Shown one piece after another: positions 2,353 to 7,337 of a stretch of 64,000 nucleotides of DNA. A program made the translations under genes and the position numbers. The first letter of the stretch is position 1, and every line of letters begins with the position of its first letter. The notes under the pieces were generated by a model. The model was not told the DNA's origin, made no database searches, and saw nothing but the letters and a program-made list of their open reading frames with translations. Origin of the DNA: Erwinia piriflorinigrans CFBP 5888 (lineage in GTDB: Bacteria; Pseudomonadota; Gammaproteobacteria; Enterobacterales; Enterobacteriaceae); NCBI RefSeq assembly GCF_001050515.1, contig NZ_CAHS01000015.1, forward strand, positions 744,001-808,000. The letters run 5' to 3'.

Positions 2353-3366
2353 ATGCGTCATCTTTTTGCCCTGATACTGCTATTGATCGCTTTACCAGGC
2401 TGGGGGTATTCAGTAGGGAGCCAGCAGCTCATCCTGCAAGATAACCCACAGCAGCGTAAGCTGAAGGTACGTCTCTTCTACCCCAGCAGCAGCGAAGCGC
2501 GTCCACACAGAGAGGGGGATAATCACGTCTTTGAGGGATTTAACGCGCTGGCCGATGCGCCAGTGGCGCAAGGTAAATTTCCCCTGATACTGCTCAGTCA
2601 CGGCAGCGGCGGCAATAATACCAGCCTGGCGTGGCTGGCGGTTCCTCTGGCTGCCAGCGGGGCGATTGTGATCGCCGCTAACCACCCCGGCAGTACAACC
2701 GGTGATTCCAGACCTGATACCCGTATCACCCTTCAGACACGCGATCTTTCATTTCTGTTAACGCATTTTTTGCAGGATGAGAAATGGCGGAAAGCTATCG
2801 ACCCACGAACAGTCGGTGCAATAGGCCACTCAAAAGGGGGATACAGCGTATTGGCGCTGGCAGGAGGGCAGATAACCAAACAGCGTTTGGTTAACTACTG
2901 CCGCATGATGCCTCAAATGCCCGACTGCACGTTTTATCGGCGCGGTCATCTGCCGCCGGAAAAATGGGATGCTGCCGATCTGGCCGGCGACTTTACCGAT
3001 CCGCGCGTGAGTTTTGTTGTCGCAATCGATCCAGGTATGAGCTACGCGTTCACCCCCGTCAGCCTGCGGGGAATACACATTCCTGTATTGACGATCGCTG
3101 CTGGCTACTATATCCATGACCAGCCGCCTATCAATCTGGGCGTGAACCGGTTGCCTTTACCCAGGCTTTCGCTGCCACAGGCGGGCCATTTCGATTTTCT
3201 CCCCCTGTGCCAGCCGGATGCAGAGAAAATCCTGGCACAGGAAGGTGAAGCGTTTATTTGCCAAACGCCCCGGTCACAGCGTGAAGCTATTCATCAACAG
3301 ACGGTCGCTGCCATCAGAAGGTTTATATGGCACAACTCAATGGCGGCAACGCCACCGGGCCATTAA
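2353..3366 (+). CDS. Secreted alpha/beta-hydrolase (dienelactone hydrolase / PAF-acetylhydrolase-like)
   Basis: A 337-residue protein with a Sec signal peptide (MRHLFALILLLIALPGWGYS). The alpha/beta-hydrolase fold is shown by an oxyanion-type motif LLSHGSGGNN (about residues 80-89), the nucleophile elbow AIGHSKGG with Ser160, a candidate acid in VVAIDPGMS, and a catalytic-type His in QAGHFDFLPL. This matches the predicted dienelactone-hydrolase/PAF-acetylhydrolase-like lipoproteins and periplasmic hydrolases of Gram-negative bacteria; the substrate is unknown. The ATG at 2353 is preferred over the in-frame GTG at 2344, because the Shine-Dalgarno GAGGAG (2339-2344) overlaps that GTG and sits 8 bases before the ATG. 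Possibly controlled by the divergent AraC-type regulator. Confidence 0.82.
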   Translation: MRHLFALILLLIALPGWGYSVGSQQLILQDNPQQRKLKVRLFYPSSSEARPHREGDNHVFEGFNALADAPVAQGKFPLILLSHGSGGNNTSLAWLAVPLAASGAIVIAANHPGSTTGDSRPDTRITLQTRDLSFLLTHFLQDEKWRKAIDPRTVGAIGHSKGGYSVLALAGGQITKQRLVNYCRMMPQMPDCTFYRRGHLPPEKWDAADLAGDFTDPRVSFVVAIDPGMSYAFTPVSLRGIHIPVLTIAAGYYIHDQPPINLGVNRLPLPRLSLPQAGHFDFLPLCQPDAEKILAQEGEAFICQTPRSQREAIHQQTVAAIRRFIWHNSMAATPPGH

Positions 3367-3404
3367 CAGAAGGCTAAAGGAGGCGATTCAGGACGGGTCA
3401 GCAC

Positions 3405-3436
3405 CAACAAAAAATATCCTCCGGCATAGCCGGAGG
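3405..3436 (-). terminator. Hairpin with T-run at the end of the IS200 remnant
   Basis: Perfect 8-bp arms CCTCCGGC (3418-3425) and GCCGGAGG (3429-3436) flank the loop ATA. Read on the minus strand, the hairpin is followed by ATATTTTTTG. Subterminal hairpins like this are typical of IS200/IS605 ends, and it would also act as an intrinsic terminator. It may be all that is left of the element's 3' end. Confidence 0.55.
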
Positions 3437-3439
3437 TTT

Positions 3440-3640
3440 CATATGCGCCTGTTTTGGGCCGGATTTCCAAAAGCATATGAATGTGATCCGCACAACATTC
3501 CGCCCCCAGAATCTTCACATTTTTCCACTCACCCAGCTTTCTTAATATGCCACCTATCGCCCGATGCTTTTCTCCATAGAACACCTGCCCCCGGTATTTA
3601 GGCGCAAATACTATGTGATATTTTCAGAACGATTATTATG
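3440..3640 (-). pseudogene. IS200/IS605-family TnpA transposase remnant
   Basis: On the minus strand from about 3620 the frame reads KYHIVFAPKYRGQVFYGEKH, then a helix-rich stretch and ECCADHIHMLLEI. This is the N-terminal half of an IS200-type Y1 transposase, including the metal-binding HIH motif. A TGA codon lies just upstream of the lysine, and after MLLEI the similarity stops; the hairpin at 3418-3436 follows almost at once. The catalytic tyrosine half is missing, so this is an inactive internal-deletion remnant. It sits directly left of the AT-rich C39 cassette and may mark how that DNA arrived. Confidence 0.8.
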
Positions 3641-3770: not shown

Positions 3771-3819
3771 TTGACATAGAATTTTTAGTAATTATCCTTT
3801 ACTAAAGGAAGTAATTATC
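3771..3819 (+). promoter_or_regulatory. Putative sigma-70 promoter with operator-like repeats for the C39 cassette
   Basis: TTGACA (3771-3776), a 16-base spacer and TATCCT (3793-3798) form a plausible promoter 35-60 bases before the first cassette gene. Over and beyond the -10 there is a direct repeat AGTAATTATC (3787-3796 and 3810-3819). Between its copies is a perfect palindrome CCTTTA-C-TAAAGG (3796-3808). The repeat period is 23 bp, about two helical turns, so this looks like a repressor operator. The regulator is not identified. Confidence 0.5.
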
Positions 3820-3833
3820 AAGACAGGGATTTT

Positions 3834-4700
3834 ATGTGTCGCTTTAACTATTTACTATGTCTCATCGTTTTAAGCCCGGCTACCATATTGGCTGAAACTA
3901 AACCCAGCGCCAGTGACTCACCAAAGTCAATCTTGAAAATAGAAGATTTCCTACCTGAACGTCAAAAATGGACCGTGAGCTCTGGGGTAAATATTCTCAA
4001 TAGTAGCAGTGAAGGCAGCCAGCCCGGATACCACATCAATCAGATAAGCCCGGGTCAATACATTCTGGACCGAACGAATGCTCCTTATAGAAAGGAAAAT
4101 AATGGTGCATCAGCATATCTGTCGGGTATGTACGGGGTGACTTCTCATCTTAGTTTATCTGCAACGCTTAATGGTCAGTGGATAAATACAAAGTACTCCA
4201 CTCAAAATAATTCCAGCTCCAGCCAGTCGGAGTATAAATTTAACGGCTTGGGCGTTGGGTTAAGTTACCAACTCTATAGACTGTCTGATTACACCGTTTT
4301 TTTTGGCGGTGTTAATGCTAAAGATGGCAGCGTCGGAAGCTATGTATTGGGCGCATCACTTAACTGGATTTATGATCCTCTTGTGTTAAGTTTTTCAATG
4401 GGGTATCTGGATGGCATATCAAAAGAGAGGTTTTCTAATGATTTTACCGCCTGTACAACCACAGGTAAGGTTATTTTTGCAGTGAATCCAGAAGTGAGCC
4501 TTAATTGGGGCCTGTCAAAAGATTTCATCAATGCAAGAACAGCTTATGGTGATGATAATGAATGGGGCAGCAATACCTCAATGCTGGTTGGAGTCAATGT
4601 TAATCTAATGAAAGATTTAGCCGGAAATATCAGCCATAAAGGTGGGGTTGGAGGAAATAAAAGTTCCGTAATATCTGTAGGTTTGAGTTATAAAATATAG
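3834..4700 (+). CDS. Putative outer-membrane beta-barrel protein of the C39 cassette
   Basis: A 288-residue protein with a signal peptide (about residues 1-20, cut after ATILA). A short charged segment (SILKIEDFLPERQKW) is followed by a region of alternating polar and hydrophobic strands (for example HLSLSATLNGQWIN, FNGLGVGLSYQLYRL, YVLGASLNWIYDPLVLSFSMGYL, ISVGLSYKI). The C-terminus LSYKI suits an outer-membrane insertion signal, although the last residue is Ile rather than Phe. The pattern resembles MetA/phenol-degradation-type or FapF-type barrels, but I do not recognise a named family. It is the first gene of a tight four-gene operon; the next start lies about 10 bases on. Inferred role: an outer-membrane export pore for the next gene's product. 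Base composition is clearly more AT-rich than the gyrA or nuo genes. Confidence 0.65.
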   Translation: MCRFNYLLCLIVLSPATILAETKPSASDSPKSILKIEDFLPERQKWTVSSGVNILNSSSEGSQPGYHINQISPGQYILDRTNAPYRKENNGASAYLSGMYGVTSHLSLSATLNGQWINTKYSTQNNSSSSQSEYKFNGLGVGLSYQLYRLSDYTVFFGGVNAKDGSVGSYVLGASLNWIYDPLVLSFSMGYLDGISKERFSNDFTACTTTGKVIFAVNPEVSLNWGLSKDFINARTAYGDDNEWGSNTSMLVGVNVNLMKDLAGNISHKGGVGGNKSSVISVGLSYKI

Positions 4701-4710
4701 GGAAATGATT

Positions 4711-5160
4711 ATGAATTTTAGAATGATGTTTGCAGTGACTTCTGTTTTTTTAATCACTCCGGTATCAATAGTTGCTTATGCGATAAAAAGCGAGAAGCTT
4801 AATCAGCAACAGAATCGTCTCTCGCATCTCAACTACGATGAGTTCAGAGTCATGGATCGGGAGGAAATGGCTGATACAAAAGGTAAGGTAGGACCTGCTC
4901 TTGTGATCGCTGGTCAAGCTGCTGCAGGGGCAGGTACTGCGATTGCTAACGCCTATGCATCCGCACCCAATAATTCTCCAAACACTTCAGAAGTCATAGC
5001 GCAAGGAGTCGGTGGTTTTGTCGCAGGAGGGCTAAATACTTTCACGGGACCTGTTGCAGCATCAGCTTTTGGCTTGAGTGCATATGGCGCGACACAGGCA
5101 ATGCTGGGTGGTGGTGGAAATTCGGAATGCCAGACATGCCATGCGATTTCGAAACCATGA
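4711..5160 (+). CDS. Small secreted Gly/Ala-rich protein with Sec signal and double-glycine-like leader
   Basis: 149 residues. A Sec signal (residues 1-24, ending VAYA) is followed by a charged leader (25-59) ending MDREEMADTKGK. This fits the double-glycine leader pattern LSxxELxxIxGG: Met at -12, Glu at -8, Met at -7 and Gly-Lys at the cleavage site. From residue 60 the chain is small and hydrophobic with repeated GxxxG/GxxxA spacing (VGPALVIAGQAAAGAGTAI), a second Gly-rich block (GVGGFVAGGLNTFTGPVAASAFG), GGGG and a terminal CQTC pair. It looks like a bacteriocin precursor or an amyloid/pilus-type subunit. The start at 4711 is chosen because AGGGAA (4699-4704) sits 6 bases before it; the ATG at 4705 is too close. 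It is the probable substrate of the C39 peptidase at 5450. Confidence 0.65.
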   Translation: MNFRMMFAVTSVFLITPVSIVAYAIKSEKLNQQQNRLSHLNYDEFRVMDREEMADTKGKVGPALVIAGQAAAGAGTAIANAYASAPNNSPNTSEVIAQGVGGFVAGGLNTFTGPVAASAFGLSAYGATQAMLGGGGNSECQTCHAISKP

Positions 5161-5450
5161 ATATAATATTAAGTATTGCATTAGTGGTTCTGTATATCAT
5201 CACCGGCAGAAAAATATTTGAGAAGAAGCGGAACTTCGCGATTTTCTCGACAGCATTTATGATTTTTATGTTCTGCTGGTCTTTGAGTTTCAATAACTTC
5301 TCAACGATCTATACTCTGTCCGCCGTCATCATTAATATATTACTTTTCATTTTCAGGATAAAAGTACATCAATTCCCTCGAGCGCGTGAGATTGTTTTTC
5401 TTCTGCCGATGATTTCGCTTATCAGTACTGTTACCCGAATGATAAGCTGA
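5157..5450 (+). CDS. Small multi-pass inner-membrane protein of the C39 cassette
   Basis: 97 residues, almost wholly hydrophobic, with three to four predicted membrane segments (IILSIALVVLYIIT, FSTAFMIFMFCWSLSF, TLSAVIINILLFIF, IVFLLPMISLISTV) separated by short basic loops. No family is recognised. Its ATG overlaps the stop of the preceding gene (ATGA), and its own TGA overlaps the ATG of the peptidase gene (TGATG), so all three are probably translationally coupled. A longer frame from 5127 exists, but the overlapping ATGA start is the natural one. Possible roles are self-immunity toward the small secreted protein, or a chaperone/anchor in the export path; neither can be proved from sequence. 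Confidence 0.6.
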   Translation: MNIILSIALVVLYIITGRKIFEKKRNFAIFSTAFMIFMFCWSLSFNNFSTIYTLSAVIINILLFIFRIKVHQFPRAREIVFLLPMISLISTVTRMIS

Positions 5451-6028
5451 TGGAATTGAAATGGAGGGAGAGTTTGAGAAGAGCTTTCAGAGGATGGGTG
5501 ATTGTTATGCTCCTCTCTATTAGTCAATCTTATGCAAATAACACCTGGGTGGAAATGCGCTTTGGGAAAGTTAAAAAGCAAGTCAGTGATAATACCTGCG
5601 GGCTGGCTTCGCTAGTTTATATCTTTTCCGAGCACTACAATAAAGAAATCTCTGAAGATGAACTTATATTAACAGCAGGAGTAAAGACAGAGTATTCCTT
5701 TCTGGATCTGGCAAGGCTGGCCAAAATTTTTTCTATAAAAACTTCCGGCGTGAAAATAACCCTGGTTCAACTGAGCAGAATTCACTCTCCTGCCGTTCTG
5801 TATCTGAACCGATTTGGTAAAGACCACTTTGTTGTTTTTAATGGTATTGATAAGGGCATAGTGCAACTCTATGATCCTGCATGGGGCATGATAAATTATA
5901 CTGTTAATCAATTCTACAGACATTGGGCTGATGTTGATGGTTATGGGAAAGTTTTAATTTTTCTTGACCATCGTCAGGTTAAAATTAATGATGACCTGAT
6001 CTTTGAGAAGAAGATACCCGAATTTTGA
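5450..6028 (+). CDS. Secreted C39-family cysteine peptidase (stand-alone, periplasmic)
   Basis: 192 residues. A signal sequence (basic start MELKWRESLRRAFRGW, hydrophobic VIVMLLSIS, cut near QSYA at residue 29) precedes a full peptidase C39 domain. Visible features are the oxyanion Gln44 and nucleophile Cys50 in KQVSDNTCGLASL, His126 in GKDHFVVFNGI and Asp142 in YDPAWG. C39 domains cut leaders after double-glycine-type sites and usually form the N-terminus of bacteriocin ABC exporters. Here there is no transporter and the domain is exported, as in FapD-type proteins of functional-amyloid operons. The adjacent Sec-exported protein with a GG-like leader is the evident substrate candidate. It overlaps the preceding gene by one base and is the last gene of the cassette. 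Confidence 0.8.
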   Translation: MELKWRESLRRAFRGWVIVMLLSISQSYANNTWVEMRFGKVKKQVSDNTCGLASLVYIFSEHYNKEISEDELILTAGVKTEYSFLDLARLAKIFSIKTSGVKITLVQLSRIHSPAVLYLNRFGKDHFVVFNGIDKGIVQLYDPAWGMINYTVNQFYRHWADVDGYGKVLIFLDHRQVKINDDLIFEKKIPEF

Positions 6029-6043
6029 ACAGGGTTAAACGGA

Positions 6044-6345
6044 TTATCCAGAAAGCAAAATGCCCGCCGCCTCCGGCGACGGTTGTTGTTGCTTGTCTTT
6101 GGTCTGCTGCTTTTCTTCGGTGGCCGCAGATCCCTGTTGTGCAATGCCGACAGGAAGCGGCACTGGTGATAATGGCACCACGGTATTGTTCGACCATTGC
6201 AGCATGACGGCGGGCGCAGGCTGTAAGACAGGCTGCACGTCGGTCGCTTGCCAAACGCCAAAAACATCAGGCCATGCAGGAGCAGAGAAACGTTAAACCA
6301 GACGCTGCTTCCGCCAGCCTGAGGTGCGTAAAGAATCTCTGTCAT
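6044..6345 (-). pseudogene. Truncated, frameshifted tonB/hasB-like energy-transducer gene
   Basis: From ATG 6345 the minus strand reads MTEILYAPQAGGSSVWFNV then SLLLHGLMFLAFG, a TonB-type N-terminal anchor. A one-base shift near 6245 is needed to continue in the frame ATDVQPVLQPAPAVMLQW and the linker QQTKDKQQQPSPEAAG, which stops at 6044. The rest of the proline-rich region and the C-terminal domain that contacts receptors are absent; the next gene is the convergent C39 peptidase ending at 6028. The start lies 7 bases after the ChaN-type gene, so this was the second gene of a Fur-controlled pair. Loss of its 3' part at the cassette edge suggests the accessory DNA truncated it. Confidence 0.75.
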
Positions 6346-6352
6346 CTCCGGT

Positions 6353-7222
6353 TTACCGTTTTTCTGTGGCCGGGGCGATAAACCACAGGTAATCAGCCTG
6401 TTGCACAGTGATGTTCATGCCTTTCTCTGCCAGCATCAGCACGACCGGCTTTGATGAAGGAGAGAGATCCTTCATATGCAAAGGAACACCGATGCTTTTG
6501 GACGCATGGTAACCGCCAGCAATCAGCAGCGCGGGAGGGGGCGCACTGAGCAACTGTTGCGCCATATAGCGGTCACGCTGTTGCTGAATTGCCAGCATCG
6601 AAGTCAACTGTTGGCCTTCGATATTACCTTCGTGCATGACAACAATAGTCTCCTTCAGCGCAGCATGTACTGCTGGCGCGGTGGAGTTTTTTCCTTCCGG
6701 GAAACGAGGGTTTTTATAAAGACTCATGACCTGGTCACGATTGATATTAGCATTCAGCAAAGGGTAAGACGCGCGCAATACCCCGCTGACGACACCTCCG
6801 TACATTGCCCACGGCCAGCCTTTTTGCCAGCTAAGGCGTTCCTGAATACGGCTATCCCGTACTAGCGGGTCCTCTTTCAGCCAGTTTTTTACCTGAGTGA
6901 CGCGTGGTTGCTGGCTCGCTGTCAGCATCTCCAGTAACACGCTGCCCTGCGGACGTTCCAGCGACAGATTTTGGATTAGCCAGAGTTCAATCTGATGATG
7001 TTCGGCATTATCGTGTTTTTCTCCGACGATAAGTCGGGGAGCGCTGGCGAGCTTAACCAGCAGTTGCCGATCGGTTAGCATTTGCCCGCTATGCAAATCA
7101 ATGATTTGCCCATAAGTTATGGCGGCCTGACCGTACGCGAGAGTATGAGTGCTTTGGTTGCAGGCGCAGAGGCCCAAGTTGGCTAGCACTATCAAAGATA
7201 TAAAAAACAATTGTTTACGCAT
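6353..7222 (-). CDS. ChaN-family (haem-binding type) lipoprotein
   Basis: A 289-residue protein from ATG 7222. The signal MRKQLFFISLIVLANLG ends in a lipobox LCAC. The body matches the ChaN/DUF399 family: LIVGEKHDNAEHHQIELWLI near the start, VLLEML, then WPWAMYGGVV, and LLIAGGYHASKSIGVPLHM near the end, where conserved histidines lie. ChaN of Campylobacter and PhuW-type proteins bind haem and are iron regulated. A Fur palindrome lies 83 bases upstream and a tonB-like remnant 7 bases downstream, supporting a role in haem/iron uptake. A longer frame starts at 7309, but it would cover the Fur site and bury the signal peptide, so 7222 is preferred. Confidence 0.83.
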   Translation of the reverse strand: MRKQLFFISLIVLANLGLCACNQSTHTLAYGQAAITYGQIIDLHSGQMLTDRQLLVKLASAPRLIVGEKHDNAEHHQIELWLIQNLSLERPQGSVLLEMLTASQQPRVTQVKNWLKEDPLVRDSRIQERLSWQKGWPWAMYGGVVSGVLRASYPLLNANINRDQVMSLYKNPRFPEGKNSTAPAVHAALKETIVVMHEGNIEGQQLTSMLAIQQQRDRYMAQQLLSAPPPALLIAGGYHASKSIGVPLHMKDLSPSSKPVVLMLAEKGMNITVQQADYLWFIAPATEKR

Positions 7223-7304
7223 ATCTTTTGCCCGGAGGTAGCCTTCAATAGCTGTTAATATTGATGTCTTTCTATTTATAACGGGCGGCATATTAACAAA
7301 CAAC

Positions 7305-7337
7305 CCCATTAAATGATAATAATTATCATTTAATGGG
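7305..7337. promoter_or_regulatory. Fur box: perfect 33-bp palindrome
   Basis: Arms CCCATTAAATGATAAT (7305-7320) and their exact reverse complement (7322-7337) flank a single A at 7321. The core AATGATAATAATTATCATT fits the 19-bp Fur consensus closely. It lies upstream of the ChaN-type gene on the minus strand and indicates iron-dependent repression. Confidence 0.9.

Follow-up and report, generated by a model that had tools for sequence, protein, structure and literature searches.

The four genes described here occupy positions 3834-6028 on the forward strand of a 64,000-nucleotide stretch of the Erwinia piriflorinigrans CFBP 5888 genome (contig NZ_CAHS01000015.1, positions 744,001 to 808,000; hereafter the window). 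Reading of the open reading frames (ORFs) reveals tightly packed, AT-rich genes for an outer-membrane barrel, a cargo precursor, a small membrane protein and a C39 peptidase, in this order and on the same strand, in agreement with a preliminary description of the locus as a compact four-gene cassette (Table 1). Signal peptides were judged by eye. The barrel and cargo genes are separated by 10 bases, the cargo and membrane genes overlap by 34 bases if the latter starts at 5127 and by 4 bases if it starts at 5157, and the membrane and peptidase genes share one base. The length of 97 residues first given for the membrane protein holds for the ORF from 5157, and the alternative ATG at 5127, which overlaps the codon of the first Cys of a C-terminal motif of the cargo, extends it by ten. 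The cargo ORF (4711-5160) encodes 149 residues from its second ATG and would encode 151 from the ATG at 4705. The GC content of the cassette is 0.41 against 0.531 for the whole window, and 2.9% of stretches as long as the cassette are as low. The cassette of the window is complete and most likely horizontally acquired; no tRNA that could have served as the integration site was found in the window.

Table 1. Features of the cassette and its immediate surroundings, with positions in the window.
Feature	Positions	Strand	Basis
Candidate promoter (TTGACA, 16 bases, TATCCT)	3771..3798	+	10 of 12 matches; weak
FapF-like outer-membrane barrel, 288 residues, signal peptide by eye	3834..4700	+	profile A3 against FapF structures
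Cargo precursor part: Sec signal and double-glycine-type leader ending MDREEMADTKGK	4711..4887	+	alignment of precursors; predicted cleavage after K59
Mature cargo, 90 residues, Gly/Ala-rich, predicted bacteriocin	4888..5160	+	comparison of homologues
Small membrane protein, 107 residues (from 5127) or 97 (from 5157), predicted immunity protein	5127..5450	+	divergence; orphan arrays in E. coli
Codons of C140-Q-T-C143-H144, heme-c-type C-X(2-4)-C-H motif near the C-terminus	5128..5142	+	motif in 14 of 14 readable cassette cargos
Exported (periplasmic) C39 peptidase, 192 residues	5450..6028	+	Pfam C39, 74.9 bits; export signal by eye
Broken TonB-like gene (cjrB type) adjoining the cassette	6044..6345	-	two pieces compared separately with pUTI89 CjrB
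ChaN-family haem-binding lipoprotein (cjrA type)	6353..7309	-	PF04187, E 5e-35

The Pfam C39 match of the peptidase, for which the cut-off is 22 bits, is the only real library match among the four proteins. Residues Q44, C50, H126 and D142, previously reported to be intact, are invariant in nine aligned peptidases, and by eye the peptidases of Vibrio and of the genome G059 have a lipobox-like Cys. The peptidase reaches the NCBIfam models of FapD with 58.4 bits (cut-off 330) and of FilB with 43.4 bits (cut-off 475) as well as four further models, all below their cut-offs, so that it does not count as a FapD equivalog or as the FilB peptidase of a pilus system. A profile built from nine barrel sequences (A3) matches the FapF structures 5o65, 5o67 and 5o68 with an E-value of 4e-5, all remaining matches having E-values of 0.35 or worse; FapF is thus the sole credible solved-structure match, if a weak one, of what had been called a barrel-like outer-membrane protein. 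The same profile detects a barrel gene at E below 1e-6 in 18 of the 35 C39 loci searched. In line with the proposed shared logic with the Pseudomonas Fap system, the barrel matches FapF, and barrel and peptidase lie nearest to FapF and FapD, respectively, among named families. In the cargo precursor, E52, T56, G58 and K59 of the second leader are invariant in four aligned sequences, in agreement with the claim of a Sec signal, read by eye, followed by a second leader. This leader ends in GK, not GG, and the precursor is predicted to be cleaved after K59. The mature cargo has no meaningful family match in Pfam or NCBIfam and, by eye, no amyloid-type or Asn/Gln repeats.

The same arrangement of four genes is seen again in Winslowiella iniecta, the genome G030 of the same genus as the window, G059, Serratia inhibens, Photorhabdus sp. 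(where the barrel is split) and Vibrio coralliilyticus (exact), so that the arrangement is more than chance. The Photorhabdus barrel gene consists of two overlapping ORFs (L061 2228-3122). Distribution of the cassette is sporadic. At an E-value of 1e-8, 7 of 98 relatives match the peptidase, namely the window genome, G023, G030, G015, G059 and the broken copies of G016 and G020; decayed cassette copies are seen in G015, G016 and G020. A scan of genome contigs returned six loci, three of which are the cassettes of W. iniecta, Serratia inhibens and Photorhabdus sp. CRCIA-P01 and three weak matches in Bacteroidota assemblies. The peptidase profile used for genome and locus searches (A1) matches 1 of 178 genomes of the family of the Photorhabdus genome and 1 of 30 of the genus of the Serratia genome, in each case the known one. 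Among 392 genomes of the family of the window it finds the window's own peptidase and one weak match with stops, and among 394 genomes of the order only two strong matches, its own and G059. Another 17 genomes of the order match with E-values of 1e-21 to 1e-26, and those that were read have repeat-rich, Fap-like exported proteins. Enterobacterales loci distinct from the cassettes (L088-L104), with a FapD-like C39 protein, lower A1 scores and, in those read, repeat-rich exported proteins, possibly represent a Fap-like fibre family. At class level, 25 of 369 genomes match at 1e-10 or better, and one genome (G143) has seven places matching an exported C39 peptidase (L106-L111) and may be a multi-cassette genome. 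One scan of viral contigs yielded no relative, and the four phage records that match have distant C39 matches only.

Plasmid records match in 33 cases, 10 of them over at least 80%. Three E. coli plasmids of 5.9, 6.2 and 6.6 kb that carry the cassette are typed as mobilizable, and the other genes annotated on them are replication, mobilization and hypothetical genes; a fourth E. coli plasmid with the cassette is AF3 plasmid 3 (6.2 kb). A complete cassette on the plasmid of E. coli N51 (L066 2307-6071) has an E492-group microcin gene and a transposase of the Tn3 family in its vicinity. The G059 cassette lies, by eye, in a composite-transposon-like manner between two inverted, near-identical transposase-like ORFs (L025 2393-3085 and 6709-7401).

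No Pfam or NCBIfam model names the barrel, the cargo or the membrane protein, and the peptidase reaches the cut-off of no specific model. To this extent the system is undescribed, as had been proposed, but the hemocin genes of plasmid p250 and the nap island share a similar plan. Avibacterium paragallinarum p250 carries annotated genes for HmcD, a C39 peptidase, an AAA ATPase, the hemocin structural protein and the hemocin immunity protein; hemocin itself is a tested bacteriocin of Haemophilus. Like the cassette, this 6.3 kb plasmid encodes a barrel (HmcD, 47.7 bits with A3), a C39 peptidase (110 bits with A1), a structural peptide with a Sec-type signal and a double-glycine (GG) leader, and an annotated immunity protein. 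It differs in having the additional AAA ATPase gene, in the position of the structural and immunity genes downstream of the C39 gene, and in its cargo, which has CSVC and CHNC pairs but not C-X(2-4)-C-H. The Neisseria C39 peptidase matches A1 at 99.9 bits. The nap island is described as horizontally acquired, with the C39 peptidase NapP, the FapF-related channel NapF, small GG peptides (NapA-C) and NapI (PMC11798529). Acquisition, peptidase, channel and peptides resemble those of the cassette; gene order, cargo and the reported role, autolysis, differ. In Fap, the barrel is homologous and the C39 protein is exported, FapD being a periplasmic peptidase that is required for secretion, as shown with a C38A variant (PMC5557850); the Fap cargo is a repeat amyloid with several subunits, and no immunity gene is present.

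The small membrane protein is predicted to shield the producer. Between the window and W. iniecta it has the lowest identity (37%) of the four proteins, the barrel, cargo and peptidase being 71, 66 and 54% identical, respectively. At longer distances cargo and membrane protein alike show low identity; in two of the listed pairs (Photorhabdus/G030 and window/G059) that of the membrane protein slightly exceeds that of the cargo. In plasmid 5 of E. coli MSB1_4I, three small membrane ORFs of 60, 58 and 56-71 residues lie between the cargo and C39 genes. Among 5426 complete E. coli genomes, 458 have this three-gene array covered to 80% or more, and of its 469 places 467 are on plasmids. The MSB1_4I cargo type has any match in 6 E. 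coli genomes, and its C39 peptidase is covered over at least 80% in 6; hence at most 6 of the 458 array genomes can have the cargo. In the two orphan copies read, on pUTI89 and a small plasmid of AR_451, all three ORFs remain open, C39 is truncated at 69 residues and the cargo and barrel genes are missing, and both copies adjoin a gene that bears the name colicin E1 family microcin immunity protein. The record of pUTI89 has no genes annotated over its orphan array and truncated C39 gene (L065 3995-5349). Orphan arrays and divergence, together with the homologues, are consistent with the immunity role suggested in the preliminary description.

The alleles on the E. coli plasmids differ most in the mature peptide. 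Between pSCU-387-3 and MSB1_4I, identity is 96.2% in the barrel, 96.1% in the Sec signal and leader and 83.6% in C39, and falls to 50.7% in the mature peptide. Synonymous divergence (dS) in this pair is 1.39 in the mature part against 0.14 in the barrel, with a ratio of non-synonymous to synonymous divergence (dN/dS) of 0.32 in the mature part. In the MSB1_4I/N51 pair, dS is 0.68 against 0.09 and dN/dS of the mature part is 0.16. Since dS of the mature part rises along with dN, these differences indicate allele exchange by recombination rather than point-by-point selection.

The cassette is most probably a bacteriocin system on what we group as the hemocin/Nap plan. As judged from its signal peptide, the precursor would cross the inner membrane by the Sec route. 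The soluble periplasmic C39 peptidase, whose catalytic residues are intact and whose target leader is conserved, would then cut after GK of the second leader, and homology suggests that the 90-residue Gly/Ala-rich peptide would leave through the FapF-like barrel. From its composition, the mature peptide would probably target the membrane of related bacteria, and the small membrane protein would protect the producer. Before export, cytochrome c maturation, which takes place in the same compartment, would have access to the C-terminal CQTCH, so that the product may carry heme. The bacteriocin reading is supported by the related cassettes on mobilizable E. coli plasmids, the p250 and Neisseria homologues, the orphan arrays beside a colicin-type immunity gene, the diversity of the mature peptide and the N51 copy near an E492-group microcin gene. 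Homologues likewise argue for the Sec export, periplasmic C39 clipping and barrel route, and for the bacteriocin-plus-immunity option, both put forward in the preliminary description. Several points weigh against the bacteriocin reading. The AlphaFold model of the barrel is poor, with a predicted local distance difference test (pLDDT) value of 26, and that of the cargo is helical with low confidence (pLDDT 42). The orphan arrays belong nearly all to one lineage (about 96.5% identity) and may have hitch-hiked with neighbouring plasmid genes, and the membrane protein of the window has no detectable similarity to the E. coli array proteins. Neither allele pair has a dN/dS above 1 that would indicate positive selection on the mature peptide. 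The Naps of Neisseria are reported to promote autolysis without killing competitors (PMC11798529). Finally, no ORF of an 8.5 kb Neisseria stretch, in which the Nap genes were not located, matches the barrel profile.

The report on Neisseria bears on a self-lysis system, in which the cassette would serve programmed death instead of acting as a weapon: the Naps are the nearest experimentally studied kin consulted. This is quite unlikely, however, because the plasmid life-style, the orphan arrays by a colicin-type immunity gene (two copies) and the exchange of mature-peptide alleles fit competition. The fibre option, in which the cargo would form a surface amyloid as in Fap, draws on the likeness of the barrel and peptidase to FapF and FapD and on the same export route (PMC5557850). 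It is weakened by a FapD score of 58 against a cut-off of 330, by the single short Gly/Ala-rich cargo, by eye without Asn/Gln repeats, and by a cassette without further subunit genes. Moreover, those loci of Enterobacterales whose cargos are repeat-rich stand apart as a set of their own that scores lower with A1, orphan immunity is unexpected for fibres, and the orphan arrays and mature-peptide diversity indicate competition, so that a fibre is very unlikely.

Class II microcins of Enterobacterales are small Gly-rich peptides with a double-glycine-type leader and an immunity protein; the cassette shares the former features and is predicted to share the last. Their export runs through TolC and ATP-binding cassette (ABC) exporters to which a C39 domain is fused, and class IIb members have a C-terminal siderophore in the place where the cassette cargo possibly carries heme. 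It is conceivable that the cargo is such a microcin, exported by a chromosomal C39-ABC exporter with the cassette C39 peptidase as an accessory, since the genome has a single further C39 match, on contig C22, in an exporter-sized open frame of 709 residues. None of the four cassette genes is an ABC gene, the leader follows a Sec-type signal, the peptidase carries an export signal of its own and the intact cassettes read have a barrel gene upstream, all of which make a microcin of this kind extremely unlikely. The bacteriocin reading would extend the little-studied route of Sec, periplasmic C39 and FapF-like barrel to a bacteriocin family of several Enterobacterales and a Vibrio, and would account for an unannotated membrane-gene array in about 8% of complete E. 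coli genomes.

The cargo had been said to end in CQTC. This is present, but the true motif is longer, CQTCH, and thus C-X(2-4)-C-H, the attachment motif of heme c, which had been overlooked; at residues 140-144 of the putatively exported window cargo it has the C-X2-C-H form of heme-c proteins. The tail occurs in all 14 readable cargo ends of the clade (window, W. iniecta, the G020 remnant, G030, G015, G059, Serratia, Photorhabdus, Vibrio, pSCU-111-4, pSCU-387-3, MSB1_4I, N51 and AF3), or in 12 if the identical tail of MSB1_4I, N51 and AF3 is counted once; G016 was omitted because its cargo is unrecognisable. The spacing is X2 in 11 tails, X3 in two (G015 and pSCU-111-4) and X4 in one (G030), and His directly follows the second Cys in all 14 despite these changes. 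None of seven kin cargos outside the clade has the motif (L019, three in L020, L112, L113 and the p250 structural protein). These kin are the cargos caught by the leader pattern in 18 C39 loci, together with the p250 cargo picked by eye; C39 genes and an out-of-frame ORF over a C39 gene (L108 5520) were excluded, and no cargo was recognised in the other loci. Nor does any ORF of 60-260 residues in the 8.5 kb Neisseria stretch have the motif, the Nap genes not being located there. Of 1906 distinct ORFs of 60-260 residues in the window and the loci collected, 21 have C-X(2-4)-C-H among their last residues, and 15 of these are cassette cargos, one of them (L121) a cut duplicate of that of the window, the remaining 6 being other ORFs. 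A chance origin of the motif is rejected on this ground. An origin as a by-product of gene overlap is also rejected because G015, G059 and the E. coli plasmids L015 and L016 have cargo and membrane genes without any overlap.

Cytochrome c maturation should have access to a CXXCH tail exported by Sec. System I is reported to need only CXXCH or little more and to modify peptides of 12 residues (PMC3601427), and a C-terminal heme tag has been used, with the hypothesis that System I treats any CxxCH polypeptide delivered by Sec (PMC6962350). What the cargo has in common with c-type cytochromes and heme-tagged peptides made by System I (Ccm) is a C-X2-C-H motif in a polypeptide with Sec-type export, in hosts that possess Ccm; it differs in that the motif lies at the very C-terminus of a peptide resembling a bacteriocin and that 3 of the 14 tails have X3 or X4 spacing. 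These spacings occur in heme-c proteins, and no mention of them was found in the review passages searched on such proteins. A tentative reading, rated somewhat below even, is that the cargo is a heme-carrying bacteriocin to which Ccm attaches heme through the C-terminal motif. Sec would then be used because Ccm works in the periplasm, the C39 peptidase would trim the other end and the FapF-like barrel would release the product. The heme might act as bait for the heme or TonB-type receptors of rivals, just as the siderophores of class IIb microcins act as receptor bait, or as a redox-active warhead. Among the best matches to searches on bacteriocins and microcins with covalent heme, no heme-bearing bacteriocin is apparent from the titles. 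Heme on such a bacteriocin would be new, if true, and would make it a natural Trojan-horse or redox peptide built with the cell's own cytochrome c machinery. The chances are about even that the tail instead binds a metal or a receptor or ends in a disulfide, any of which is compatible with a bacteriocin. The variable Cys spacing favours such a role, as does the poor discrimination offered by Ccm: all 9 cassette host genomes tested carry CcmE, yet it is also present in 75 of 98 relatives and in 5 of the 6 hosts that have other C39 loci. Host Ccm therefore fails as a discriminator for the cassette and only permits the heme idea. Conversely, a plain disulfide does not require the conserved His, and the modest demands of System I make heme attachment easier to envisage.

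Beyond the motif, heme attachment is supported by two kinds of neighbour. In Photorhabdus, the last cassette gene ends 76 bases before a ccmA ORF on the same strand, which is followed by ccmB, a ccmC-like ORF (by eye) and ccmE; CcmA scores 288 bits (cut-off 195) and CcmB 269 bits (cut-off 156). The cassettes of the window and G030 lie beside a gene of the haem-binding ChaN family; counting the window genome, only 8 of the 37 genomes of the genus have ChaN. In G030, the ChaN gene ends 429 bases upstream of the cassette, which thereby takes the place where, by eye, four other genomes read have a TonB-like ORF. The window ChaN is 68.5% identical to CjrA of pUTI89 and 47-53% identical to five same-genus copies, out of seven found. 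On pUTI89 itself, the ChaN gene lies about 1.5 kb from the orphan membrane-gene array. G023, apparently W. iniecta, has ChaN and the cassette on different contigs, and no ChaN-type neighbour was seen by eye within roughly 1 to 5 kb on each side in W. iniecta, G015, Serratia, G059 and Vibrio. For such neighbours, co-mobilisation is as good an explanation as function.

Directly by the cassette of the window, the cjrA-like ChaN gene and the broken cjrB-like TonB gene (6044-7309) form a plasmid-type pair, and there is no receptor ORF between this pair and the cassette. The two pieces of the TonB-like gene are 58% identical to pUTI89 CjrB over 31 residues and 64% over 56 residues, and its 99-residue piece has no Pfam match. 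Elsewhere in the window genome, the ORFs around CcmE are, by eye, ccmA, B, C, E, F, G and H. Promoter-like sites number 7 in the cassette region against a mean of 6.9 in shuffled sequences, which makes the promoter call weak. Just 5' of the cassette, a fragment on the reverse strand (3363-3584) resembles, by eye, an IS200-type transposase.

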